This document shows, piece after piece, positions 1 through 15,745 of a stretch of 21,021 nucleotides of DNA. How positions within the stretch are numbered: the stretch's first letter is position 1; every line of letters begins with the position of its first letter. The notes under the pieces are model-generated. The model had not been told where the DNA came from. It searched no databases and worked only from the letters and a program-made list of their open reading frames with translations. Origin of the DNA: Clostridia bacterium (GTDB lineage Bacteria > Bacillota_A > Clostridia > Peptostreptococcales > JAAYPU01); contig JAKSCF010000359.1 in assembly GCA_022360735.1 (NCBI GenBank), forward strand, positions 1 to 21,021, read 5' to 3'. The position numbers and the translations under genes are program-made.

Positions 1-232
1 CATCTTTTAAAAAGTCATGAGGTATCTGTATGGTAATGCCTGCACCATCACCGGTTTCCACATCTGCACCTGTAGCGCCTCTATGCGACAAGTTTTTTAA
101 TACCTCCAGACCATTGACTACTATTTCATTAGATTTTATGCCATTAACATTTGCTACTAAGCCAACACCGCAACTGTCCTGTTCATAATCTGGATGATAT
201 AGCCCTTGTTCTTCCGGAAATCCATTATTCAT
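1..232 (-). CDS. gltB: Glutamate synthase large subunit, N-terminal fragment (cut by window edge)
   Basis: The large subunit of glutamate synthase makes two glutamates from glutamine and 2-oxoglutarate. Only the first 77 codons are in the window. The translation contains DSCGVGLVAN, whose Cys21 would be the N-terminal nucleophile of the class II glutaminase domain after removal of a ~20-residue propeptide. It also contains LSHRGATGAD and GDGAGITIQIPHDF, both typical of GltB. Two in-frame ATGs lie at 238 and 232. I choose 232 because the AGGAGG at 247-242 is 9 nt away from it but only 3 nt from the other. The gene has its own promoter. It belongs functionally with glnA and amtB to the right but is separated from them by the 5-kb sigma-54 module. 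Identity is secure; the rest of the protein is not visible. Confidence 0.93.
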   Translation of the reverse strand, partial: MNNGFPEEQGLYHPDYEQDSCGVGLVANVNGIKSNEIVVNGLEVLKNLSHRGATGADVETGDGAGITIQIPHDFLKD

Positions 233-307
233 TTCCATCAACCTCCTATTGCTCGAACTTTATTTTTATATCAATAATAAATATTCGCAGTTATTGTTTT
301 AACAATC

Positions 308-4436: not shown

Positions 4437-5501
4437 ATGAATGATTTTTTATATAGTCAACACATTGATACAGATAATTGTTGTATAGCGATCAATGATT
4501 TTACACCATTCAGATTTGAAAACATTATAACTAAGGATAAAGAAATGAAAAATATAGTACTTTTAGCCAAACGAGTAGCAGAATCTGAAGCTTCAATTAT
4601 ACTTTATGGACCTTCCGGCTCTGGAAAGGAAGTTATAGCCGAGCACATACATAAAAACAGTAAGAGATCTGAAAAACCGTTAATAAAGCTAAATTGTGCT
4701 TCTATCCCGGAAAGTTTGTTTGAATCAGAAATTTTTGGCTATGATGCAGGCGCTTTTACCGGAGCTTCAAGATATGGCAAAAAAGGGGTAATGGAGTTAG
4801 CCGAGAACGGGACCTTGTTTTTAGATGAAATAGGCGAAATGCCTTTAAGTATACAAGCTAAACTGCTTAGAGTTATACAGGATGGCAAATTTTTAAAGGT
4901 AGGTGGACAAAAAGAATTATCAACAGATATAAGAATAATATCAGCTACTAATAAGAATTTAAAAGAGCTGGTTGCTAAAGGAAGCTTTAGGGAAGACTTG
5001 TATTTTAGATTAAATGTGATTCCTATAATTTTGCCTCCTTTATATAAGCGAAAAGAAGATATAATCATACTATCTTTATTTTATTTAGATTTCTATAACA
5101 AAAAGTATAATATCGATAAGAAGTTATCGGGAGATGTTATAAGAAAGTTCCTGAACTACAATTGGCCTGGGAATGTGAGAGAATTAAGAAATAATATTGA
5201 AAGATTGGTATTAATATCAGGCAAAAACATTATTGTTCCTGAAGATTTAATCTATTCAAATTTTGCTGTTAAGGAATTACATTTTGAAAAAAATAATTTA
5301 GATTTTAATGACATAGATTTAAATATTGATGAAGAAACAGAAGGCTCCCTGAAGGATATTATAAATGAATTTGAAAAGAAAGTTATCCTTAAAGCCGTAA
5401 AAAAATATGGTTGTCAACGAAAAGCAGCTGATGCTTTAAAGGTATCACCTTCAACAATATCTAGAAAATTAAGAAATATGAATTGCAAAGATTTTTGTTA
5501 A
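4437..5501 (+). CDS. Sigma-54-dependent transcriptional activator lacking a sensor domain
   Basis: 354 residues. The AAA+ domain starts almost at once: Walker A GPSGSGKE at 58-65, the sigma-54 contact loop GAFTGA at 105-110, Walker B GTLFLDEIGE near 125-134, and arginine-finger segment REDLYFRLNV at 185-194. A Fis-type helix-turn-helix follows at the C-terminus (KAADALKVSPSTISRKLRNM). The first ~30 residues hold no receiver, PAS, GAF or PRD domain, so ATPase control must come from another protein, from abundance or from a ligand on the AAA+ domain. The upstream RpiR-type gene ends 22 nt before, with GAGGTGG as ribosome site. The most likely target is the -24/-12 promoter of the divergent operon. 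Confidence 0.93.
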   Translation: MNDFLYSQHIDTDNCCIAINDFTPFRFENIITKDKEMKNIVLLAKRVAESEASIILYGPSGSGKEVIAEHIHKNSKRSEKPLIKLNCASIPESLFESEIFGYDAGAFTGASRYGKKGVMELAENGTLFLDEIGEMPLSIQAKLLRVIQDGKFLKVGGQKELSTDIRIISATNKNLKELVAKGSFREDLYFRLNVIPIILPPLYKRKEDIIILSLFYLDFYNKKYNIDKKLSGDVIRKFLNYNWPGNVRELRNNIERLVLISGKNIIVPEDLIYSNFAVKELHFEKNNLDFNDIDLNIDEETEGSLKDIINEFEKKVILKAVKKYGCQRKAADALKVSPSTISRKLRNMNCKDFC

Positions 5502-5686: not shown

Positions 5687-6253
5687 CTAGAATTTTTTAA
5701 TAATTTCTTCTGCTACTTTATCCATAGTTTTGCACAGGTCCATACTTTTTTTTCTAATATACTCATAGGCTTCTTTTTCACTTATCCCTAATCTTTCTAT
5801 AAGCAGACCTTTCGCTTGATCAACTTTCTTTCTGCCCTCCAGGGTATTCTCAAGCTTTTCTACTTTTTGATTTAATACTTTTATTCTGTTTGAATTCATA
5901 ATCGCAAATTCTGTAATCTGGTATAATTGATCCGGACTTATGGGTTTTGTTATATATGCAAAGATGGTCATTTTTCTTAACCTTTCATACAGATTTTGAC
6001 CAGGATTATTGGTCATAAAAACCACAACAGCAAGTTTATCTGCTTCAATGATTCTTGCAACCTCAAAAGCATTTATCCCCCAGATATTAGTATCTAATAT
6101 GACTATATGTGGTCTGATTTTTCTAGCCATTCTGATTGTTCCGGCACCATCAGTTGCATGATATGTTTTATATCCTTTTCTATTAAGCAGCTTACAGATT
6201 TTCTCTCTAGTACTCTCGGCACTGTCTGCAACCAGAATTTGATATTCCTTCAT
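5687..6253 (-). CDS. Response regulator with ANTAR RNA-binding domain (nitrogen antiterminator)
   Basis: 188 residues. Receiver domain at 1-115 with phosphoacceptor-like D54 (VILDTNI), T81 and K103 (ITKP). The usual paired acidic residues near the N-terminus are reduced to one (VAD10S). A helical linker follows (~115-135), then an ANTAR domain at ~133-186 (EGRKKVDQAKGLLIERLGISEKEAYEYIRKKSMD). ANTAR proteins bind hexaloop RNA hairpins and prevent formation of an overlapping terminator. The gene lies 24 nt after glnA with no terminator between and so is in the glnA operon. Clostridial glnA operons are known to carry such a regulator. Three matching RNA hairpins are in this window (glnA leader, and two in the amtB leader), which makes these the likely targets. 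How it senses nitrogen is not visible; no histidine kinase is encoded nearby. Confidence 0.92.
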   Translation of the reverse strand: MKEYQILVADSAESTREKICKLLNRKGYKTYHATDGAGTIRMARKIRPHIVILDTNIWGINAFEVARIIEADKLAVVVFMTNNPGQNLYERLRKMTIFAYITKPISPDQLYQITEFAIMNSNRIKVLNQKVEKLENTLEGRKKVDQAKGLLIERLGISEKEAYEYIRKKSMDLCKTMDKVAEEIIKKF

Positions 6254-6277
6254 AAAACCACTTCCAAGTTAAATAGA

Positions 6278-7615
6278 TTAATACTTCCTTAAATATCTTT
6301 TAATTTCCCATTGAGAAATACATCTGGAATACTCATTCCATTCATAAAGTGCAGCATCCATAAATTTTTCATAAACATGACTTCCCAGTGCTTCTTTTAT
6401 CACTTCATTTTTAGATAATTCTGCAACTGCTTCAGATAAATTAGAAGGCAAGCTATAAATCTGTTTTTCTTCCATCTCTTCATCATTCATATGGTATACA
6501 TTACTGTTGACCGGTGCAGGGGGCTCGAGTTTATTCTTAATGCCGTCTAGCCCTGCTTTCAATACAGTCGCTAATGCTAAGTATGGATTAGCAGATGGAT
6601 CCGGATTCCTAAGTTCAACTCTGGTAGAATTGCCTCTTTTTGCAGGAATTCTAATCAAAGGACTTCTATTGCTTGCGGACCATGCAATCAGCACCGGAGC
6701 TTCATATCCCGGAACTAATCTTTTATATGAATTAACAGTAGGATTTGTTAATGCTGCAAAGGATTTTGCATGCTTGATTAATCCTCCAAGATAGTGATAA
6801 GCAATTTCTGAAAGCTGCATATCACCTTTTTCATCATAAAAAGCATTTTTTCCATCTAACGTTGCTAAGGACATATTGGTATGCATACCGGATCCGTTGA
6901 TGTCAAATTTAGGCTTTGGCATAAATGTAGCATGTAATCCATGTCTTTGTGCGACAATTCTAACCACCATTTTAAAAGTCATGATGTTATCTGCTGTTGT
7001 TAATGCATCCTCGTATTTAAAATCAATTTCGTGCTGTCCCGGAGCAACTTCATGGTGTGATGCTTCTATTTCAAATCCCATCTCTTTAAGCGTGATGGTC
7101 ATATCCTTTCTTGCACTGCCACCCAGATCCACAGGTGCTAAATCAAAGTAACCCGCATTATCGTGAGTCTCTAAAGAGGGATTACCTTTTTCATCTGTTT
7201 GAAAAAGAAAGAACTCACATTCAGGACCAACATTTATGATAAACCCCATTTCTTTAGCTTCCTCAATAACCTTCTTTAACACATTTCTTGGGCACCCCTC
7301 AAAAGGCGTTCCATCAGATTTATAAATATCACAGATTATTCTTGCTTCTTTTTCAGTATGTGTCCAAGGGAAAACTGTGAAAGTTGAAATATCAGGTTTT
7401 AGGTACATGTCAGATTCTTCTATTCTAACAAATCCATCAATTGAGGAACCATCAAACATGATTTCGCCATTTAATGCTTTTTCTAATTGTTCCTGTGTTA
7501 TGGATACATTTTTCATTGTCCCCATAATATCAGTAAATTGTAAATGAATCAATTCCAGTTCTAACTCTTTTGCAATTTTTAGTATCTCCTCGTTGGTATA
7601 GTTTTTACTTTTCAT
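6278..7615 (-). CDS. glnA: Glutamine synthetase, type I
   Basis: 445 residues, the size of the Firmicutes GSI-alpha form, which lacks the adenylylation loop of enteric enzymes. It makes glutamine from glutamate, ammonia and ATP in the cytoplasm as a dodecamer. Clear signatures: FDGSSIDGF (latch region), GPECEFFLF (metal ligands), [11 protein letters not shown], the glutamate-flap region [17 protein letters not shown], and [21 protein letters not shown]. The ATG has AGGAGG just upstream. Transcription appears to start near 7715 and to pass through an attenuator at 7641-7700, so expression would depend on the ANTAR protein encoded next in the operon. The preceding gatB has no visible terminator, but the attenuator would also stop readthrough from it. 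Confidence 0.98.
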
Positions 7616-7640
7616 AATAATCCTCCTTTTTATTCAGAAA

Positions 7641-7690
7641 ATAAAAAAAGTCCACAACAAATGGAACAAAATATTCCATTGATGTAGACT
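7641..7690 (-). terminator. Attenuator terminator in the glnA leader
   Basis: On the minus strand an arm from 7690 to 7674 (AGTCTACATCAATGGAA) pairs with the arm from 7666 to 7649 (TTCCATTTGTTGTGGACT) around a 7-nt loop, with two mismatches and one bulge. A run of seven T follows (7648-7642). It sits between the promoter and the glnA ribosome site, so it must be overcome for glnA to be made. Its 5' arm shares bases 7685-7690 with the hexaloop hairpin. Confidence 0.88.
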
Positions 7691-7700
7691 TCATTGCCTA
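7685..7700 (-). promoter_or_regulatory. ANTAR-type antiterminator hairpin in the glnA leader
   Basis: The minus-strand RNA reads UAGGC-AAUGAA-GUCUA: a 5-bp stem (one G-U) closing a six-base loop with A at position 1 and G at position 4, the pattern reported for ANTAR-bound hairpins. Its 3' arm is also the start of the terminator's 5' arm, so only one of the two can form. ANTAR targets are usually described as two such hairpins; the other is not visible, since the predicted start is only ~15 nt upstream. Confidence 0.75.
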
Positions 7701-7721
7701 AATAATATTAATTTATAATAT

Positions 7722-7751
7722 ATTATAGTCCCTGAAAAAGTAAAATGTCAA
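7722..7751 (-). promoter_or_regulatory. Sigma-A-type promoter of glnA
   Basis: On the minus strand TTGACA (7751-7746), an 18-nt spacer and TATAAT (7727-7722). Both hexamers are perfect, so basal initiation should be strong and control is expected at the downstream attenuator. Predicted start near 7715. Confidence 0.85.
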
Positions 7752-7789
7752 TCTTTTTTTTATATTCTGTCATTATCTTTCGTATTTTA

Positions 7790-9208
7790 TTATAGCTTTT
7801 TTTCTAATAGCGCCTTTGCTAATGCAGGATTTGCTTTTCCTTTGGTTGCCTTCATCATTTGGCCAACCAGAAAACCAATAACTTGAGTCTTTCCACTGCG
7901 AAAATCTTCTACTGCTTTGGAATTCTGAGCTAGAACATCTTCTGCAATATTTTCTAATTCTCCAGTATCACTCATCTGAATCAGCCCCTTGTCTCTAACA
8001 ATCTCTTCTGGGTCCATATCTGTATATACCATTTCGTCAAAAACCTCTTTAGCAGCAGAACGACTGATTATCTTTTTTTCAACCAATTGAATGAGCTTAG
8101 CTAAACCTTCTACACTAACAGGAATTTCTTCAACGTTTTTAAGAACCCGCAACATTTCTACAGTTATCCAGTTAGATACTTCTTTAGGTTTACAATCTAG
8201 GGATACAACCTTTTCAAAATAGTCTGCCAGCCGTTTTTCTGTGATAATAATCTCGATTTCTTTTTCTCCTAAACCATACTCTTCCATAAATCGTCTCTTC
8301 TTTTCTGTAGGAAGTTCCGGTATAAATCCTTCAATCTTTTCCACTTGCTCTGTAGAAATAAACACCGGTGGCAAGTCGGGCTCAGGGAAATATCTGTAGT
8401 CATGCGCATCTTCCTTTGAACGCATGGGTACAGTTCTTCCTTTTGCCGCATCCCATTTTCTCGTTTCCTGCTTGACCTTATGCCCTTCTCCGTATGAATA
8501 TAGTTCCTTTTGCCTTTTTTCTTCCTTCTCAATAGCCTTAGCAACCTCTTTAAATGAATTTAAATTCTTGATTTCTACTTTTGTATTGTAGGTCTCTTGA
8601 CCGATTTCCCTTACCGAAATATTGACGTCACATCTTAGAGAACCTTGCTCCATTCGACAGTCGGAGATTTCGCCATATTCTAATACGCCTTTCAAAGTTT
8701 TTAGAAAAGCAACTGCTTCTTCAGCCGACCTTATATCAGGCTCTGATACAATTTCTATCAAGGGTACCCCCGTACGATTATAATCCACTAAAGATATAGG
8801 CTCATCTTCAAGGTGGATGAGTTTTCCTGCATCCTCTTCAATGTGAATTCTCGTTAATCGAATATTCTTAGTATTACCTCCCACATTAATCGCAACATGT
8901 CCATTGGTACATATAGGCAGGTCAAACTGAGAAATTTGATACGCCTTTGGCAAATCCGGATAGAAATAATTCTTTCTATCGGTCTTATTCACCAGCTGTA
9001 TTTCACAGTTTAATGCCCTTCCCGCACGAATAGCCAGATTAACAACTTCCTCGTTCAGTACCGGTAAAGTACCCGGTAATCCTATACATATTGGGCAAGT
9101 ATTTTCATTTGGTTCTGCTCCGAATTTCGTAGAACACGAGCAAAATATCTTGGATTGAGTATTCAATTCCACATGGATTTCTAAACCAACAATTATCTCC
9201 AAACCCAT
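7790..9208 (-). CDS. gatB: Asp-tRNA(Asn)/Glu-tRNA(Gln) amidotransferase subunit B
   Basis: 472 residues. GatB binds the mischarged tRNA and phosphorylates its Glu or Asp side chain before amidation. Signatures include IIVGLEIHVELNTQSKIFCSC with ENTCPICIGLPGTLPVLN (cysteines for zinc), KNYFYPDLPKAYQISQFDLPI, and KWDAAKGRTVPMRSKEDAHDYRYFPEPDLPP. The C-terminal YqeY-like tail ends FLVGQMMKATKGKANPALAKALLEKKL. An open frame continues 12 codons upstream, but the ATG at 9208 has GGAGGCG at 9220-9214 and begins the conserved sequence. The gatA stop and gatB start overlap as TAATG, suggesting translational coupling. It is the last gene of the AspRS-gatCAB operon; no obvious terminator follows. Confidence 0.97.
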   Translation of the reverse strand: MGLEIIVGLEIHVELNTQSKIFCSCSTKFGAEPNENTCPICIGLPGTLPVLNEEVVNLAIRAGRALNCEIQLVNKTDRKNYFYPDLPKAYQISQFDLPICTNGHVAINVGGNTKNIRLTRIHIEEDAGKLIHLEDEPISLVDYNRTGVPLIEIVSEPDIRSAEEAVAFLKTLKGVLEYGEISDCRMEQGSLRCDVNISVREIGQETYNTKVEIKNLNSFKEVAKAIEKEEKRQKELYSYGEGHKVKQETRKWDAAKGRTVPMRSKEDAHDYRYFPEPDLPPVFISTEQVEKIEGFIPELPTEKKRRFMEEYGLGEKEIEIIITEKRLADYFEKVVSLDCKPKEVSNWITVEMLRVLKNVEEIPVSVEGLAKLIQLVEKKIISRSAAKEVFDEMVYTDMDPEEIVRDKGLIQMSDTGELENIAEDVLAQNSKAVEDFRSGKTQVIGFLVGQMMKATKGKANPALAKALLEKKL

Positions 9209-10689
9209 TATAACGCCTCCTTTACCGACGGTATTTGCAGACAAAGACCCAGTTCTTGTTCTAAGGCATAGGCTGCCTGGAATAATTTTTTCTCTTGATA
9301 ATGATTGCCCAATAGCTGTAATCCTATTGGCAGGTTGGAATCACTCATGCCGCATGGCATGGAGATGGCAGGAATTCCTGCTAAGTTCACATTGACCGTA
9401 TAGATGTCCGCCAAATACATTTCCAATGGATTATCCACTTTTGCTCCTATTTCAAAAGGCAGCACAGGGGATGTTGGTCCGGCAATTAAATCATATTTTT
9501 TAAAAGCGTCTTGGAACATATCACGCAGTTTATTTCGATACTGCAATGCTTTTTTATAGTAAGCATCATAATATCCGGAGGATAACACATAAGTTCCTAA
9601 CATAATCCTACGCTTTACCTCTTTTCCAAATCCTTCTGTTCTGGTTTTTAATATAAGGTCCTCTGTTTCTTCAAAGTTTTTAGTGCGATATCCATAGCGT
9701 ATTCCGTCATAACGTGCTAAGTTAGAACTGGCTTCTGCCGATGAAACAATATAATAAGCCGACAGCTCTGTCTCCCCTAAAGGCATATCAAACTCCTCTA
9801 CTTTTGCCCCTAGGCTTTCCAAAGTTTTTAGACTGTCCAGCACCTTCTCCTTAATCTCACCGGAAAGTCCATCCCCTAAGTATTCTTTAGGAATACCAAT
9901 TTTCATGCCATCAATGCCTTTATAAATATCCATTGTATAATCCGGTTCTATGGGCTTTTTTACGCTGGTACTGTCCATTGGGTCATGGCCTGCAACCGCC
10001 TCAAGTCCAAGGGCACAATCCTCTACCGTCTTTGCCAAAGGGCCAATCTGATCCAAGGAGGAACCAAATGCAATTAAACCAAATCTAGAAACCAATCCAT
10101 AGGTTGGTTTCATCCCCACAAGACCACAAAATGCTGCCGGTTGACGGATAGACCCACCTGTATCGGAACCATAGGATAATGGCGCTAGCCCTGCTGCTAC
10201 TGCTGCTGCAGATCCTCCCGAAGACCCTCCTGGGACCTTCTTTAGATTCCAGGGATTATATGTATTTTGAAAAAAAGAGTTTTCTGTAGAAGACCCCATA
10301 GCAAATTCATCCATATTGGTCTTGCCTATTAGTACAGTGCCTGCTTCTTTTAGTTTTTTTGTTACGGTAGCGTCATAAGGTGGTATATAATCTTCAAGCA
10401 TTTTTGATGCACAAGTGGTTTTCATTCCATTGGTACAAATATTATCTTTTAATGCTATAGGGATGCCTTCTAATTTCCCTAAACTTTCTCCCTTTGCTAT
10501 TTTTTTATCTACTTCTTTTGCTTTTTGTAAAGCGCCTTCTCTATGAACGGATAAAAATGCTTTTACTTTGTTGTCTATCTCATGGATTCTGTTCAGGTAT
10601 GCTTCTGTTAGTTCTTTGCAGGAGAACTGCTTGTCGATTAACCGTGACTTAATTTGTGAAATTGTCATATTTTCTATTGGCAAAATCAT
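9208..10689 (-). CDS. gatA: Asp-tRNA(Asn)/Glu-tRNA(Gln) amidotransferase subunit A
   Basis: 493 residues, full length. GatA is the glutaminase that releases ammonia for transfer to the mischarged tRNA bound by GatB. The amidase-signature triad is present: K81 (IALKDN), S156 in GGSSGGSAAAVAA, and nucleophile S180 in SDTGGSIRQPA. The start is uncertain. The ATG at 10689 lies only 2 nt after AAGGAGG; a TTG at 10683 has better spacing (8 nt), and an ATG at 10668 would start directly at MTISQIKSRL. I keep 10689. The gene starts 7 nt after gatC stops, and its own stop overlaps the gatB start. Confidence 0.97.
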   Translation of the reverse strand: MILPIENMTISQIKSRLIDKQFSCKELTEAYLNRIHEIDNKVKAFLSVHREGALQKAKEVDKKIAKGESLGKLEGIPIALKDNICTNGMKTTCASKMLEDYIPPYDATVTKKLKEAGTVLIGKTNMDEFAMGSSTENSFFQNTYNPWNLKKVPGGSSGGSAAAVAAGLAPLSYGSDTGGSIRQPAAFCGLVGMKPTYGLVSRFGLIAFGSSLDQIGPLAKTVEDCALGLEAVAGHDPMDSTSVKKPIEPDYTMDIYKGIDGMKIGIPKEYLGDGLSGEIKEKVLDSLKTLESLGAKVEEFDMPLGETELSAYYIVSSAEASSNLARYDGIRYGYRTKNFEETEDLILKTRTEGFGKEVKRRIMLGTYVLSSGYYDAYYKKALQYRNKLRDMFQDAFKKYDLIAGPTSPVLPFEIGAKVDNPLEMYLADIYTVNVNLAGIPAISMPCGMSDSNLPIGLQLLGNHYQEKKLFQAAYALEQELGLCLQIPSVKEAL

Positions 10690-10696
10690 CTCCTCC

Positions 10697-10981
10697 TTAC
10701 TCTACAATCTTAGGGATTTCAATATAGGTTTCACGCATTTTTTTCACATTTTTAAACAATGCTTGTTTTTCATGAAATATCTTCATGTCATCTTTTCTTA
10801 ATACGGACACTTTCTCTTTAAACTCATAGACAGGCATATTTTCCAGGTCTACCTTATTCAAGTTATCAAAATGAGTTAGTATAGCATCAAATTCACCGGA
10901 TAGTTGATCAATTTCTTCTTCTGAAAAAGATAATTTCGCCAATTTTGCAATGTATTGTACTTCTTCTTTACTTATTTTCAT
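10697..10981 (-). CDS. gatC: Asp-tRNA(Asn)/Glu-tRNA(Gln) amidotransferase subunit C
   Basis: 94 residues, normal for GatC, the small subunit that wraps GatA and GatB together. The sequence ISKEEVQYIAKLAKLSFSEEEIDQLSGEFDAILTHFDNLNKVDLENMPV is typical of the family; the tail after residue ~60 is less conserved, as usual. AGGAGGG lies 6 nt before the ATG. It lies 11 nt after the AspRS gene and 7 nt before gatA, in the usual C-A-B order. Confidence 0.95.
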   Translation of the reverse strand: MKISKEEVQYIAKLAKLSFSEEEIDQLSGEFDAILTHFDNLNKVDLENMPVYEFKEKVSVLRKDDMKIFHEKQALFKNVKKMRETYIEIPKIVE

Positions 10982-10992
10982 GTTATCCCTCC

Positions 10993-12282
10993 TTATGGTG
11001 TTATCCTCTTCATATCTCTTGGCAGTAAAGTAGCTTTTCTTATATTATCTAGACCCAAAATCATCATGGTGATACGTTCCAGCCCAATGGCATATCCGCC
11101 ATGAGGCGGCATACCATAGCGAAAACTATCTAAATAAAAATCAAAATCATCAGGATTGCACCCAAAGTCAATCATATTTTGCTTTAACATTTCATAGTCA
11201 TGAATTCTTTGTCCACCGGTGGTGATTTCTAATCCCTTATAGATTAAATCAAAGCTTTTGGTCATGCCTTCCAATTGGTCATCCGGCATGGTATATACAG
11301 GACGCTTCGAGGCAGGATACTTGGTTAGGAATACAAAGTCACTATGGTATTCTTCCTTTACATGTTTCATAAAAAGGCTCTCTCCCTCAGCGTCAATATT
11401 TCCTACCGGAGATTTTTTGCCAAACTTTTCAAGTAGTATTCTTTGAGCATCTGCCAGCGGAATTCTTGGTATTTCTTTTATTTTTGGCAATTCTACCTTG
11501 TACATAGCCAGCTCCTTTGCACAGCTTTCATTTAGATGAGAAAAAATATGCTTCATTAAGTCTTCTTCCAGATTCATCAAGTCATATTCATCTTCAATGA
11601 ATGCCATTTCCACATCTAAACTCACATATTCATTTAAGTGGCGCCATGTGTTATGTGATTCCGCTCGATAGGCATGACCAATTTCAAATACTCTCTCAAA
11701 TCCGGCGCCCACCATCATCTGCTTATAAAACTGAGGACTTTGAGCTAAAAAGGTTCTGCGGTCGAAATAATTAACGGTAAACACCTCGGAACCGCCTTCT
11801 GTTTCACTGCCAATGATTTTAGGCGTATGAATTTCAGAAAAGTTATGTTCTCTAAAATAAGTACGAAAAGCCTCTACGATTTCCTCTTGAACTTTAAAGA
11901 CTGCTCTTCTATCAGGTCTGCGTAAACTCATACTCCTATAATCCAACTCGGTTTCTAATGTCGTCTGTATTTCTTTACCGTTAATAGCAAATGGAAGCAA
12001 GTCATAATATGTTTTGCCTAGTATTTTTAATGCGTCTACCTTTACTTCAACCCCACCGGTGGCTTTTTTATTTGCTAATACTTTCCCCTGTACTTCCACA
12101 GACATTTCCAATTGTAATGCTTTAAGAGTCTCATCATTGTCAATCACCAGCTGTACAACACCAGAGCAGTCTCTTAAAATAACAAAAGCAAAATCTTTAA
12201 ATTCTTTTATTTTGTGTATCCATCCTTGCAAGCATACATTTTCTGATTGTGTGGTCAATTGTGATATAAAACTTCTTTCCAT
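10993..12282 (-). CDS. aspS: Archaeal-type aspartyl-tRNA synthetase, probably non-discriminating
   Basis: 429 residues, class II synthetase. Bacterial-type AspRS is near 590 residues and carries a GAD insertion; this protein lacks it and matches the short archaeal-like form. The OB-fold anticodon domain (GWIHKIKEFKDFAFVILRDCSG) is followed by motif 2 (FEIGHAYRAESHNTWRHLNE) and motif 3 (GYAIGLERITMMILGLDNIR). His23 in GWIH corresponds to the position where archaeal studies reported Trp in tRNA(Asp)-specific and His in relaxed enzymes; that comparison is from memory. With gatCAB immediately downstream and a T-box that can read the Asn codon, the enzyme most likely makes Asp-tRNA(Asn) for amidation to Asn-tRNA(Asn). 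A separate discriminating AspRS elsewhere in the genome is expected. Confidence 0.93.
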   Translation of the reverse strand: MERSFISQLTTQSENVCLQGWIHKIKEFKDFAFVILRDCSGVVQLVIDNDETLKALQLEMSVEVQGKVLANKKATGGVEVKVDALKILGKTYYDLLPFAINGKEIQTTLETELDYRSMSLRRPDRRAVFKVQEEIVEAFRTYFREHNFSEIHTPKIIGSETEGGSEVFTVNYFDRRTFLAQSPQFYKQMMVGAGFERVFEIGHAYRAESHNTWRHLNEYVSLDVEMAFIEDEYDLMNLEEDLMKHIFSHLNESCAKELAMYKVELPKIKEIPRIPLADAQRILLEKFGKKSPVGNIDAEGESLFMKHVKEEYHSDFVFLTKYPASKRPVYTMPDDQLEGMTKSFDLIYKGLEITTGGQRIHDYEMLKQNMIDFGCNPDDFDFYLDSFRYGMPPHGGYAIGLERITMMILGLDNIRKATLLPRDMKRITP

Positions 12283-12299
12283 AGGTCCCTCCTATTTTC

Positions 12300-12631
12300 T
12301 TCTTTTACAGTTTTACTCTAACAAAAATAAAAACCTTTCATCCCTGTATAGGGACGAAAGGTTGATTCGCGGTACCACCCTGGTTAGCATTTAGCTCACT
12401 CTATTCAGTACAGAATTATAAAATCTTATACTGTCCAATAGATAACGGATTGGTGCCGTCTAAGTCTACTCTCACTACTCGTGATTTTGGTTAGAAACTC
12501 AGAGATGTTCTTCAGCATACATCCAGTTACCGGTCTTTCACCACCACCGGCTCGCTTTAACTTTCCAGTAAGCTTACTCTTCTCTTCATAGTCTTTAATA
12601 ATGGTTTTGATCTTCATTAAGTTCTGAATTT
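12300..12631 (-). ncRNA. T-box riboswitch leader of the aspS-gatCAB operon
   Basis: The minus strand carries the T-box AGGGTGGTACCGCG (12381-12368), the stem I base motif GAAGAGAAGAGTA, the distal GAGCCGGTGGTGGTGAAAG region with matching ACCGG, and a terminator. The specifier side reads GAAGAACATCTCT (12513-12501), where CTCT pairs with the AGAG of the 5' strand. The four bases GAAC (12510-12507) contain both GAA (Glu) and AAC (Asn), one base apart. Uncharged tRNA binding would favour the antiterminator (AGGG with CCCT) over the terminator. The T-box N is U. With its promoter this fills most of the gene-free stretch 12283-12780; I see nothing clear in the AT-rich 12667-12780. Confidence 0.95.
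12321..12363 (-). terminator. T-box attenuator terminator
   Basis: On the minus strand AACCTTTC-G-TCCC (12363-12351) pairs with GGGA-T-GAAAGGTT (12345-12332) around a 5-6 nt loop, followed by TTTTATTTTTG. It ends about 40 nt before the AspRS start. Confidence 0.92.
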
Positions 12632-12637
12632 AAAATC

Positions 12638-12666
12638 ATTTTAAAAGTATTTTACGCATTCGTCAA
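12638..12666 (-). promoter_or_regulatory. Promoter of the T-box/aspS-gatCAB operon
   Basis: On the minus strand TTGACG (12666-12661), a 17-nt spacer and TAAAAT (12643-12638). Predicted start near 12631 fits the beginning of the T-box stem I region. Confidence 0.7.
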
Positions 12667-12780
12667 GTCTTTTTGTTATTAATACATGATTTATTTTTCT
12701 CATTCATTAGAAATATTAAACGCTAAAATTATAATTTTCTAATTATTACGAATAAATCCATAAATTTTCTTTCAAAGATA

Positions 12781-13131
12781 TTATTCCAGCGCCTCCTTTC
12801 CTTGTTTTCCATCTCTTATTCTAACGACATTGGTAATGTCATATATGAAAATTTTTCCATCCCCTGGATAATTGGTCCTTAACACTTTCTCAGCTTCTGC
12901 TAAAATAGCCTCTACACACTCTTCCATAGCAACAATTTCGATTTTTACTTTTTGTAATAGTTTGGGTGTATAGTTAACGCCTCTGTAATTCTGGATAACG
13001 CCTTTTTGGTTTCCCCGACCCATAACATGAGTAACCGTCATTCCAGTAACACCGATGACATTCAATGCTTCAATCAATTCTTCATAGAGTCTTACTCTTG
13101 TTATAATTTCAATCTTTTTGATTTTATCCAT
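12781..13131 (-). CDS. glnK: PII-family nitrogen regulatory protein
   Basis: 116 residues, the usual PII size. The T-loop GRGNQKGVIQNYRG carries Tyr49, the equivalent of the modified Tyr51 of enteric PII. The C-terminal NYPGDGKIFIYDITNVVRIRDGKQG is the ATP/2-oxoglutarate-binding B/C-loop region. The end of the T-loop, NYTPKLLQK, differs from the commoner EYxVDxLPK. An open frame extends ten codons upstream, but AGGAGG is placed for the ATG at 13131. It lies 35 nt downstream of amtB in the standard amtB-glnK order, so it probably blocks AmtB under nitrogen excess. Whether it is uridylylated is unknown; no GlnD gene is in view. Confidence 0.93.
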   Translation of the reverse strand: MDKIKKIEIITRVRLYEELIEALNVIGVTGMTVTHVMGRGNQKGVIQNYRGVNYTPKLLQKVKIEIVAMEECVEAILAEAEKVLRTNYPGDGKIFIYDITNVVRIRDGKQGKEALE

Positions 13132-13166
13132 TACAATTCCTCCTCTCTGATTCTTCAACACTTTTT

Positions 13167-14384
13167 TTAAGATGCATATCCTTCGAAGTTATGTTCTACA
13201 ATATCCAGACCATTTTCCTCTTCCTCTTCTGCAACTCTTAATCCAATAGTTAAATCTATGAGCTTGAACATAATAGTACATGTCAATAATGTCCAAAATG
13301 CCACCGCTATTATCCCTATAATCTGTACTCTAAAGAGTTCTAATCCCCCTCCGTACAATAATCCACCGTCAACAGCAAATATACCAACCAATGCAGTTCC
13401 AACAGCACCACATAAACCGTGAACCGCTATGGCTCCAACCGGATCATCGATTTTCAGAACTTTGTCGATCATCTCAATAGAAAAAATGACGACTGCCCCT
13501 GCAATAATTCCTATGATAACCGCACCTGTCGGACCTACAATATCCGTTCCTGCTGTGATTGCAACCAGCCCGCCTAAGGCGCCGTTTAACGTTATACTAA
13601 CATCCGGCTTTCCATACCGGATAAATGATATAACCATAGCTGAAACAGTCCCTGCTGCTGCAGCCAAGTTTGTGGTTAAAAATATGTGAGATATACTGGA
13701 AAAATCGGTACCTGATAAAGTTGACCCTGCATTAAATCCAAACCATCCAAACCATAATATAAATACACCTAAAGCGCCTAGCGTTATGCTGTGACCTTGA
13801 ATAACATTTGATCGACCACTTTTGCTATATTTACCTACTCTCGGGCCAATGATTTTTGCTCCTACTAATGCTGCCCATCCTCCTAAAGAGTGTACAGTTG
13901 TTGATCCTGCAAAATCATGGAAGCCTTGTTGTGCTAACCATCCTCCGCCCCATATCCAATGACCCGCCACAGGATAAATAATAGTGCTCAGTATTATACT
14001 ATAGGCAATGTATGCAACAAATTTTGTTCTTTCAGCCATAGCCCCTGAAACGATGGTAGCAGCAGTAGCACAAAATACCGTTTGAAAAATTAAAAATGCT
14101 TCTTTTGGAATGTTTAATCCCAGATGTTCAAAGCTTCCTGAGGAAAACAAATCGATTTGACCTATATATCCCCCCATATCTAAGCCAAACATAATACTAA
14201 ACCCTATTGTCCAAAACATAATTGAACCAACAGATAAATCAATAATATTTTTCATTATTATATTTCCGGCATTTTTTGCACGTGTAAATCCTGTTTCCAC
14301 CATAGCAAATCCTGCCTGCATGAACAGAACTAAAGCTGTTCCCATTAATACCCACATAGTATCGATTGCAATTGAATATTCCAT
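13167..14384 (-). CDS. amtB: Ammonium transporter
   Basis: 405 residues with about eleven membrane segments (Amt family). The twin pore histidines are present as H165 (STTVHSLGGW) and H322 (GAIAVHGLCG). Other family hallmarks are FMQAGFAMVETGFTRAKNAGNI, the FCATAATIVSGAMAERTKF segment and ILWFGWFGFNAGS. The cytoplasmic tail is acidic (VAEEEEENGLDIVEHNFEG). The open frame extends nine codons upstream, but GGAGGT lies 6 nt before the ATG at 14384, so this start is preferred. It is followed by the PII gene. Expression should depend on two successive attenuators in the ~390-nt leader, both of the same type as at glnA. Confidence 0.97.
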   Translation of the reverse strand: MEYSIAIDTMWVLMGTALVLFMQAGFAMVETGFTRAKNAGNIIMKNIIDLSVGSIMFWTIGFSIMFGLDMGGYIGQIDLFSSGSFEHLGLNIPKEAFLIFQTVFCATAATIVSGAMAERTKFVAYIAYSIILSTIIYPVAGHWIWGGGWLAQQGFHDFAGSTTVHSLGGWAALVGAKIIGPRVGKYSKSGRSNVIQGHSITLGALGVFILWFGWFGFNAGSTLSGTDFSSISHIFLTTNLAAAAGTVSAMVISFIRYGKPDVSITLNGALGGLVAITAGTDIVGPTGAVIIGIIAGAVVIFSIEMIDKVLKIDDPVGAIAVHGLCGAVGTALVGIFAVDGGLLYGGGLELFRVQIIGIIAVAFWTLLTCTIMFKLIDLTIGLRVAEEEEENGLDIVEHNFEGYAS

Positions 14385-14553
14385 TTTTGTACCTCCAATT
14401 TTTTTATTCAAGTATTGATTCTGAAGAAAAAAATCTATATGTTTAAAGATTGTTATTTACATTCTTAATCTTCTCGACTCCCTAAAAGACTAATTGGTTT
14501 TGAATTACAGTATAAATATAAATTATAAACTTAAATAAATCCTTCAGAAAAAC

Positions 14554-14596
14554 AAAAAGGCACCTTAATAGCAGTTTTCTACTGTATTAAGGCGCC
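14554..14596 (-). terminator. Second attenuator terminator in the amtB leader
   Basis: On the minus strand GGCGCCTTAATA-C-AGT pairs with ACT-GC-TATTAAGGTGCC around an AGAAA loop, followed by TTTTTGTTTTT. Its 5' arm begins with the GGCGCC that also forms part of the hexaloop hairpin at 14591-14602. The remaining leader, 14385-14553, is AT-rich and shows nothing else clear. It is the stronger of the two amtB terminators. Confidence 0.9.
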
Positions 14597-14602
14597 ATTG
14601 CC
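14591..14602 (-). promoter_or_regulatory. Second ANTAR-type antiterminator hairpin in the amtB leader
   Basis: Minus-strand GGC-AATGGC-GCC: a three G-C stem closing a six-base loop with A1 and G4. It is mutually exclusive with the terminator at 14554-14596, since bases 14591-14596 belong to both. The stem is short, but the same arrangement occurs at glnA and at the first amtB site. Confidence 0.68.
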
Positions 14603-14695
14603 ATTTGACTATATTTTTTTTGCAGATTTTTCTCAGAATTTTTCCATCACATCCTTTTCTTCTATATTACACAGCTGTATACTTGAATTCAAAAT

Positions 14696-14739
14696 AAAAA
14701 ACGGCATCGGATTAAGAAAACTTTCTTAATAACGACACC
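14696..14739 (-). terminator. First attenuator terminator in the amtB leader
   Basis: On the minus strand GGTGTCG (14739-14733) pairs with CGATGCC with two G-U pairs. After a small internal loop the 9-bp ATTAAGAAA/TTTCTTAAT forms the upper stem, and six T follow the lower stem. It is about 35 nt after the predicted transcription start. Confidence 0.88.
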
Positions 14740-14745
14740 ATTGCC
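14734..14745 (-). promoter_or_regulatory. First ANTAR-type antiterminator hairpin in the amtB leader
   Basis: Minus-strand GGC-AATGGT-GTC, extended by TAA/TTA with one bulged G, closing a hexaloop with A1 and G4. It overlaps the 5' arm of the terminator at 14696-14739, so formation of one excludes the other. Confidence 0.72.
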
Positions 14746-14775
14746 TTACTTTGAACTTTATTTATTAATGTATTA

Positions 14776-14804
14776 ATTATAATTAGATAATGTGACTTTG
14801 TCAA
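14776..14804 (-). promoter_or_regulatory. Sigma-A-type promoter of amtB-glnK
   Basis: On the minus strand TTGACA (14804-14799), 17-nt spacer, TATAAT (14781-14776), a perfect match to consensus. Predicted start near 14770. It lies 24 nt beyond the exporter gene's stop codon, and no separate terminator for that gene is visible. Confidence 0.88.
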
Positions 14805-14827: not shown

Positions 14828-15745
14828 TCAATTCATACTCTTTTTTCTAAAATAAGGAATAAATTTTAACTCTGTTTCTATTAAAATAATGGCAGAAAAT
14901 ATCAGTAATGTTCCCCATAATACTGAAAGGGTTAGGCTTTCCTTTAGTATTAAAAAACCAAATATTGCAGCAAAAACCGATTCCAGTGAAATAATAATCA
15001 CCTGCCGCGTAGCGGTGGTATATCTTAAGCTCATGTTAACAATAACATGAGCAACCGCCGTTGCACCTATGACGATATATATAATAGCCAGAATACTTTC
15101 CGTATGTCCGGTATAAACCGGAAGGGGTTCAAAGGCTATTGCCGCAATAATATAGTATAGACCTGTTCCACCGGTTTGAGAAATAGCTATACCAATGGGA
15201 TCCATTTTTTTTATATAATGTGCTTTTAAAATGATGACAAAGGAAAAAAGAATGGACGCTGATAATGATAGGGCCTCGCCAAATCCTATATGTATTTCAC
15301 CTTCTACTAAAGTAAGAAAATAAATCCCTATCATACACAATAAAGAGCCTGTCATCACCGTCCAATGAGGGCGTTTTTTATATATAATCGTAGTAATAAG
15401 CGGTACCCACACCGTATAAGTTGCCACAAGGAAAGCATTGACTGCCACAGAAATATACTGCATGGCCGATGTCATACAAGCAAACGCAACAAAAGAAAAA
15501 AAACCGATAACCAAGCCTACTTTCACATAACTTTTATCAAGCTGCTTTGCTTTTTTCCAAAAAACCAGCCCAACCGCTATAAACCCAAATCCAAATCTAA
15601 ATACATTAACGTATATAGGTGAAAACTCTAACAGAGCATATTTTATAGCGATATACTCCATTCCCCATAGCATAGCTCCAATAATCAATGCCATATCGGC
15701 ATAAAAGATTTTTTTCTTGTCTACTTCATACTTATGTTCGTCCAT
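14828..15745 (-). CDS. EamA/DMT-family transporter (10 membrane segments)
   Basis: 305 residues with ten hydrophobic segments forming two EamA repeats. The first repeat has the typical IIGAMLWGMEYIAIKYALLEFSPIYVNVFRFGFGFIAV; the second ends AVAHVIVNMSLRYTTATRQVIIISLESVFAAIFGFLILKESL, a classic EamA ending. The first ~14 residues are charged and cytoplasmic. The gene begins 14 nt inside the end of the decarboxylase gene, so the two are translationally linked. Family members are exporters of amino acids and other metabolites. Given the partner enzyme, export of a polyamine or of an amino acid related to its substrate is possible, but this is inference only. Confidence 0.88.
   Translation of the reverse strand: MDEHKYEVDKKKIFYADMALIIGAMLWGMEYIAIKYALLEFSPIYVNVFRFGFGFIAVGLVFWKKAKQLDKSYVKVGLVIGFFSFVAFACMTSAMQYISVAVNAFLVATYTVWVPLITTIIYKKRPHWTVMTGSLLCMIGIYFLTLVEGEIHIGFGEALSLSASILFSFVIILKAHYIKKMDPIGIAISQTGGTGLYYIIAAIAFEPLPVYTGHTESILAIIYIVIGATAVAHVIVNMSLRYTTATRQVIIISLESVFAAIFGFLILKESLTLSVLWGTLLIFSAIILIETELKFIPYFRKKSMN

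Follow-up and report, generated by a model that had tools for sequence, protein, structure and literature searches.

ANTAR proteins whose receiver-like domains are run by a partner protein, and not by a kinase, are known from the AmiR/AmiC and NasT/NasS pairs. ANTAR proteins such as EutV and NasR are known to act as antiterminators, binding hexaloops and blocking an overlapping terminator. In known ANTAR targets, one hexaloop hairpin (P2) overlaps the terminator and another (P1) lies shortly before it, and deletion of P1 abolished the induction of eutP (PMC3369931). NitR of Clostridium saccharobutylicum is described as inducing the genes of glutamine synthetase and glutamate synthase (GS/GOGAT) by antitermination under nitrogen limitation (Stutz et al. 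2007, cited in PMC6316151), and nitrogen ANTAR regulons that include ammonium transporter and P-II genes have been predicted, for example in Desulfotomaculum (Ramesh 2012; PMC3369931). Because two earlier searches for ANTAR targets, that of Ramesh 2012 (PMC3369931) among them, were built on two stem-loops, a single-loop class would tend to be passed over; the minimal target has since been redefined as a single hexaloop, the role of single hexaloops being left for further work (Walshe 2022; PMC8934654). Here we describe a glnA-linked ANTAR regulator gene, nitR, and three hexaloop-terminator units in a 21,021-nucleotide (nt) stretch of DNA from a Clostridia bacterium (contig JAKSCF010000359.1), the whole of which is called the window.

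We consider it likely that these elements belong to a NitR-type nitrogen regulon comprising glnA-nitR and amtB-glnK, controlled by antitermination at single hexaloops and switched through a pseudo-receiver. The window holds three copies of the motif GGCAATGNNGYC, each on the minus strand (7687-7698, 14591-14602 and 14734-14745), exactly where a preliminary description of this DNA had placed them; the mean count of the motif in 100 dinucleotide shuffles was 0.06, and none of the shuffles held three copies. One site stands before glnA and two stand in series before amtB. As that description had also noted, each site is a hexaloop with A at position 1 and G at position 4 (A1/G4) that overlaps an intrinsic terminator; its stem has at least three pairs. 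These are the features expected of an ANTAR target RNA, and our unit detector flagged the same three sites and nothing else in the window. The predicted fold of all three units is the terminator, with the 3' arm of the hexaloop lying within the terminator 5' arm; their energies are -21.0 kcal/mol for glnA (z -5.4), -19.5 kcal/mol for the first amtB unit (z -5.5) and -24.1 kcal/mol for the second (z -4.6), and in no case was any of 200 shuffles as low. When short pieces were folded alone, the hexaloop hairpin formed in two out of three, while the 14725-14750 piece, from the first amtB unit, prefers a 4-nt loop.

The arrangement is conserved in relatives. Among 148 genomes drawn from the order of Marinisporobacter McD1.33, 20 carry a close ortholog of nitR (E < 1e-38), that of G034 being divided over two contigs, and a further ortholog in Clostridium carboxidivorans brings the number of nitR genomes to 21. 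In every one of these, as in the window, glnA lies directly before nitR on its upstream side, and the order amtB-glnK-glnA-nitR is seen in five (G003, G010, G022, G030 and G124). Hexaloop-terminator units precede glnA, amtB or both across these genomes, the tandem amtB units recurring in G010 and G022; in two other genomes of the order, G049 and G138, a divergent ANTAR protein is encoded directly downstream of a glnA that has a single-hexaloop leader. A lack of loop conservation in related genomes had been named beforehand as one of the outcomes that would speak against the preliminary reading, and it was not observed: in an alignment of 38 units (three from the window and 35 from the 21 nitR genomes) the core G8 C9 A10 A11 G13 G16, with its run G-C-A-A-n-G, is invariant, the amtB leaders of G031 and G013, with G for A at loop position 1, having been left out of the alignment. 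The pairing of the hexaloop stem offers a fair test of the hairpin, since its 5' arm lies outside the terminator. Paired cells amounted to 80.3% against 73.1% after shuffling, and two-sided changes numbered 27 against 14.5, a value reached by none of 500 shuffles and by none of six slid controls. Of the 38 units, 20 have G-C and 13 have A-U as the fourth pair counted from the loop, and the inner three pairs hardly vary; the terminator pairs covary too. As kinship is not fully controlled, the stem covariation supports the hairpin and does not prove it.

A covariance model trained solely on units from other genomes, 35 in all, ranks the three window sites first to third, with E values of 8e-12 (glnA), 1.3e-6 (first amtB) and 0.017 (second amtB); the next-best site in the window has E 0.13. 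The informative signal is the hairpin plus the terminator only. The bare 12-mer is present in 21/21 nitR genomes and also in 38/40 genomes without a close ortholog, and was rejected as a genome-wide marker for that reason. A model built from all 38 units (R1) matches 21/21 nitR genomes at E <= 1.1e-6, all of which supplied training sequences, and, at E < 1e-4, none of the 40 genomes of the order that lack a close ortholog. The best matches among these controls were 8e-4 and 0.017 (both in G012), 0.021 and 0.025, and 16 of the 40 had some match at E <= 1; among the divergent ANTAR-like genes of G012, one adjoins a glutamine-synthetase gene that has a hexaloop leader. Beyond the units it was trained on, R1 found others (E from 1e-9 to 0.009) before type III and other glutamine synthetase genes (L257, L258, L260, L261), a xanthine/uracil-type permease gene (L255) and a gene of the NifH family (L256), a match at G037:C1:1303176 being left uncounted. 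At E <= 1e-3, R1 matches 56/398 genomes of the phylum and 6/79 from the family of C. carboxidivorans.

The protein encoded beside the glnA unit has a REC domain followed by an ANTAR domain (PF00072 and PF03861, both above cut-off in a domain scan). The residues with which EutV touches G4 or plugs its target loop (R142, K149, E160, Y164 and M172; PMC8934654) correspond to R141, K148, E159, Y163 and M171 here by our own matching of the numbering; among 42 ANTAR proteins encoded next to units (34 at single and eight at dual hexaloops), R141 is kept in 41, K148, E159 and M171 in all 42, and Tyr or Phe at position 163 in 41. Only 24 nt separate the end of glnA from nitR, so the two probably form one operon, and the earlier proposal that the regulator controls itself would mean that nitR is read together with glnA.

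We judge it unlikely that NitR is a normal, phosphorylated response regulator that tolerates a change in its acid pair. The full phosphorylation site (acid pair, acceptor Asp, Thr/Ser and Lys) is present in 0/42 of the unit-adjacent ANTAR proteins against 19/19 proteins of the EutV clade, the acid pair being broken in every one of the former and intact in every one of the latter. These 61 proteins were placed in three groups by gene neighbourhood, after removal of three duplicates and of a single protein, encoded beside L317 and likewise degenerate, that fitted none of them; eutA lies near 17 of the 19 EutV-clade proteins and was not seen beside L120 and L125. In the window protein the pair reads D10-S11, and Ser stands at the second place in all 28 aligned rows, namely the window protein and 27 of 37 database matches. 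A phosphorylated NitR would fit the acceptor Asp, which is kept in 30/34 of the single and 5/8 of the dual group, and the Thr81 and Lys103 that the window protein also retains; against it, the acceptor is replaced by N, Q, E, H or S in 7/42, and no kinase was found among the ten window proteins scanned. The preliminary description had named the phosphorylated protein as the active form, which is probably wrong, given an acid-pocket residue that is lost here and kept in the EutV clade. The EutV proteins form one clade in our ANTAR tree, on which five changes of single or dual status are needed, although the tree was made by a quick method and has 18 of 58 inner branches well supported and several long ones.

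The receiver is thus best read from its sequence as a pseudo-receiver, and NitR is probably switched by a protein or a ligand and not by phosphorylation. The degenerate receiver suggests a partner protein as the controller. P-II is not an obvious one, as it went undetected in 2/21 nitR genomes (G001 and G037), and its role as an obligate partner is weakened, even though genome completeness is not reported and such absences are soft; the same softness applies to amtB, not found in G037. Glutamine synthetase, the upstream neighbour in 21/21, is a candidate. Compared with AmiR/AmiC and NasT/NasS, both glutamine synthetase and P-II are only candidate partners here.

It seems improbable that the leaders are ordinary dual-hexaloop attenuators whose first hexaloop is degenerate, placed otherwise, or part of a leader longer than predicted. 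The arrangement that defines such an attenuator, P1 and P2 a short linker apart, was detected in neither window leader. A strict P1 detector scored 1/38 units where shuffling leads one to expect 2.8, and a relaxed one that accepts any first loop base scored 1/38 against 0.4 expected, its one candidate overlapping the promoter. The same relaxed detector found P1 in 14/16 noncoding units of loci that carry eutA (Fisher p 5e-10); these come from 11 of 17 eutA loci and were limited to terminator energies <= -15 outside long frames, a filter chosen after the first P1 results. Six of the 16 are in nitR genomes, four with P1 (G059 and G037) and two without (G047 and G056). In the window the 21 nt from the glnA -10 box to the hexaloop stem contain no G, and 32/38 units by our own row count have a promoter-like pair of at least 9/12 ending no more than 40 nt from the stem core, though such matches are common by chance in AT-rich DNA (12 found, 10.7 expected). 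The distance from loop to terminator end has a median of 49 nt in the nitR set against 43.5 nt (p 3e-4), which may give more time for binding and proves nothing.

Dual leaders do occur at similar genes elsewhere, and P1 loops with G1 for A1 exist (L274, L295 and L333), both of which speak for this alternative. The wider set of units was drawn from 75 loci, of which L293 and L339 were dropped for want of an A1/G4 hexaloop; 68 of 71 phylum matches entered it (two of G002 were already in the order set and G012 was handled separately), as did 7/9 matches from the C. carboxidivorans family (two of G003 were already included), and no gene was recognised downstream of four of the 73 remaining units, which may therefore be false. 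P1 was found in 22 of the 73 and was lacking in 51, with 3.8 expected by shuffling. Dual and single leaders numbered 10 and 17 at glnA-type genes, so that 10/27 of these units in other Clostridia are dual, 0 and 5 at gdhA (L268, L275, L277, L287 and L306), and 2 and 0 at gltB (L280 and L302), the last two samples being small. Since R1 was trained on single-loop leaders, the share of single ones is only indicative, and in some units called single a P1 may have been overlooked (L335 has one by the strict rule and none by the relaxed one). Single-hexaloop attenuators also stand before genes with a PPDK_N domain (L294, L308 and L313) and before genes of oxidases linked to flavin adenine dinucleotide (L328 and L331), which are unexpected targets for an ANTAR nitrogen system; the downstream genes of L294, L308 and L331 were domain-scanned and those of L313 and L328 assigned by similarity. 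In the gdhA and glutamate-synthase-like leaders L268, L273, L275, L277, L287 and L306 we noticed by eye an inverted repeat resembling CAACTGTT...AACAGTTG, which lies next to the hexaloop on the 5' side and overlaps a TTGACA-like box.

That the units simply terminate transcription of the genes before them, or are attenuators that answer to a factor other than the ANTAR protein, is very hard to credit: they do follow gatB and the gene at 14828-15745, and binding by NitR is a prediction, but a 12/12 promoter stands between each upstream gene and its unit, the loop and the 5' arm are conserved though needless for a terminator, the best Rfam match to the two leaders has E 0.41 with all matches far below gathering scores, and the units track the regulator across genomes.

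Several points weigh against regulation by NitR at single hexaloops. The hexaloop hairpins are of low stability when isolated (out of 200 shuffles each, 29, 10 and 77 fold as well), and the second amtB unit is the weakest match to the independent model. One of the five stem measures, the count of pair types, does not rise above shuffling (276/500), and relatedness by itself can lift sequences above shuffles of this sort; the 40 control genomes are a choice out of 128 from which any with an EutV-like match had been removed. The glnA leader of G001 and the glnN leader of G124 carry another G4 hexaloop 66-72 nt upstream, as a dual arrangement with a distant first hexaloop would have it. R175 of EutV, one of three residues whose joint mutation abolished binding (PMC8934654), is replaced in 38/42 of the regulators encoded beside units. 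In vitro, a longer linker stopped antitermination by EutV (PMC8934654), and because EutV needs P1 and tolerates no such lengthening, a leader with one loop may depend on a helper that has escaped notice. The loss of R175 was tried as a mark of single-loop readers and dropped, as it is also seen in 5/8 dual-loop NitR-like proteins.

With these points taken into account, we still favour regulation through single hexaloops, and suggest the following course of events. From a strong promoter, transcription of both glnA-nitR and amtB-glnK would enter a short leader and stop by default at an intrinsic terminator, of which the amtB leader would offer two in series. Under nitrogen limitation a NitR dimer would bind the one hexaloop, A1-A-N-G4, on the 5' side of the terminator; with the hairpin of this loop held, the overlapping terminator could not close, and glnA-nitR and amtB-glnK would be read. 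One hexaloop would be enough, unlike in EutV, and the pseudo-receiver would pass on the signal of the protein or ligand. The direction of control and the nitrogen signal are borrowed from C. saccharobutylicum NitR, as summarised in the review, and from EutV. The preliminary view of one regulator acting by antitermination on three attenuators, with glnA-nitR and amtB-glnK as targets, thus gains support from the comparison of genomes, whereas its assumption that the system works just like EutV or NasR finds no support in leaders that lack the first hexaloop required by EutV and in a receiver that has lost an acid-pocket residue.

Table 1. Predicted elements of the nitR locus (positions in the window).
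Feature	Position	Strand	Remarks
nitR-like ANTAR regulator	5687..6253	-	188 amino acids; REC 6-113, ANTAR 132-185; acid pair D10-S11 non-canonical, D54 kept
glnA, type I glutamine synthetase	6278..7615	-	stop 24 nt before regulator
glnA leader intrinsic terminator, U-run	7643..7692	-	5' arm overlaps hexaloop 3' arm
glnA leader hexaloop hairpin UAGGC-AAUGAA-GUCUA	7685..7700	-	sole hexaloop of glnA leader
glnA promoter, predicted, TTGACA-18-TATAAT	7722..7751	-	12/12 match
glnK / P-II protein	12781..13131	-	start taken as ATG at 13131; longest open reading frame to 13161
amtB ammonium transporter	13167..14384	-	start taken as ATG with GGAGG at 14384; longest open reading frame to 14411
amtB leader terminator 2, U-run	14554..14596	-	overlaps hexaloop 2
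amtB leader hexaloop 2, GGC-AAUGGC-GCC	14591..14602	-	motif search and unit detector
amtB leader terminator 1, U-run	14696..14739	-	overlaps hexaloop 1
amtB leader hexaloop 1, GGC-AAUGGU-GUC	14734..14745	-	motif search and unit detector
amtB-glnK promoter, predicted, TTGACA-17-TATAAT	14776..14804	-	12/12 match

The spacer between the tandem amtB attenuators (14602-14695, minus strand) is partly conserved among the window, G022 and G010 (L153 and L154), with CAGCTGT followed some 15-25 nt further on by AGGA.GTGAT, which resembles a ribosome site and start codon; the short reading frame there has no constant length. Elsewhere in the window, a T-box leader (12347-12598, minus strand) precedes a gene for aspartate--tRNA(Asn) ligase, followed by gatCAB-like genes, and the plus-strand gene at 4437-5501, adjoining one for an RpiR-family regulator, encodes a sigma-54-type activator ATPase with a helix-turn-helix, in which the ATPase domain is preceded by no more than about 30 residues.

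The core idea is less new than the preliminary description implied, since both antitermination by C. saccharobutylicum NitR and nitrogen ANTAR regulons have been published before. The system described here resembles that NitR in being an ANTAR regulator tied to glutamine synthetase, and differs from the account in the review in having amtB-glnK as a probable target, whereas gltB, which starts only at the window edge about 5.4 kb from nitR, has no hexaloop unit (sought in window 2-241). With EutV and the eut leaders (PMC3369931, PMC8934654) it shares the REC-ANTAR architecture, the A1/G4 hexaloop overlapping a terminator and the conserved G4 contacts, but two hexaloops and a phosphorylatable receiver there stand against one hexaloop and a pseudo-receiver here. 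The regulons of Ramesh 2012 have similar targets, namely ammonium transporter, P-II and glutamine/glutamate synthesis genes, yet were found with a dual-hairpin model. What is new, as far as searches of the open-access literature show, outside the text of Stutz 2007 and the tables of Ramesh, is a conserved class of single-hexaloop attenuators that goes with ANTAR proteins encoded beside glnA and equipped with a pseudo-receiver.

We lean, by a modest margin of belief, towards a second and widespread class of clostridial ANTAR attenuator, in which a single hexaloop would be read by a pseudo-receiver NitR under the control of a partner, perhaps glutamine synthetase, instead of a kinase, and which in some cells would exist beside dual-loop EutV. 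The nitR leaders offer a natural, conserved set on which the sufficiency of one loop could be tested, with the dual-loop eut leaders of at least two of the same genomes (G059 and G037) as an internal control, and the loss of the receiver site points to a nitrogen signal that would be free of kinases.

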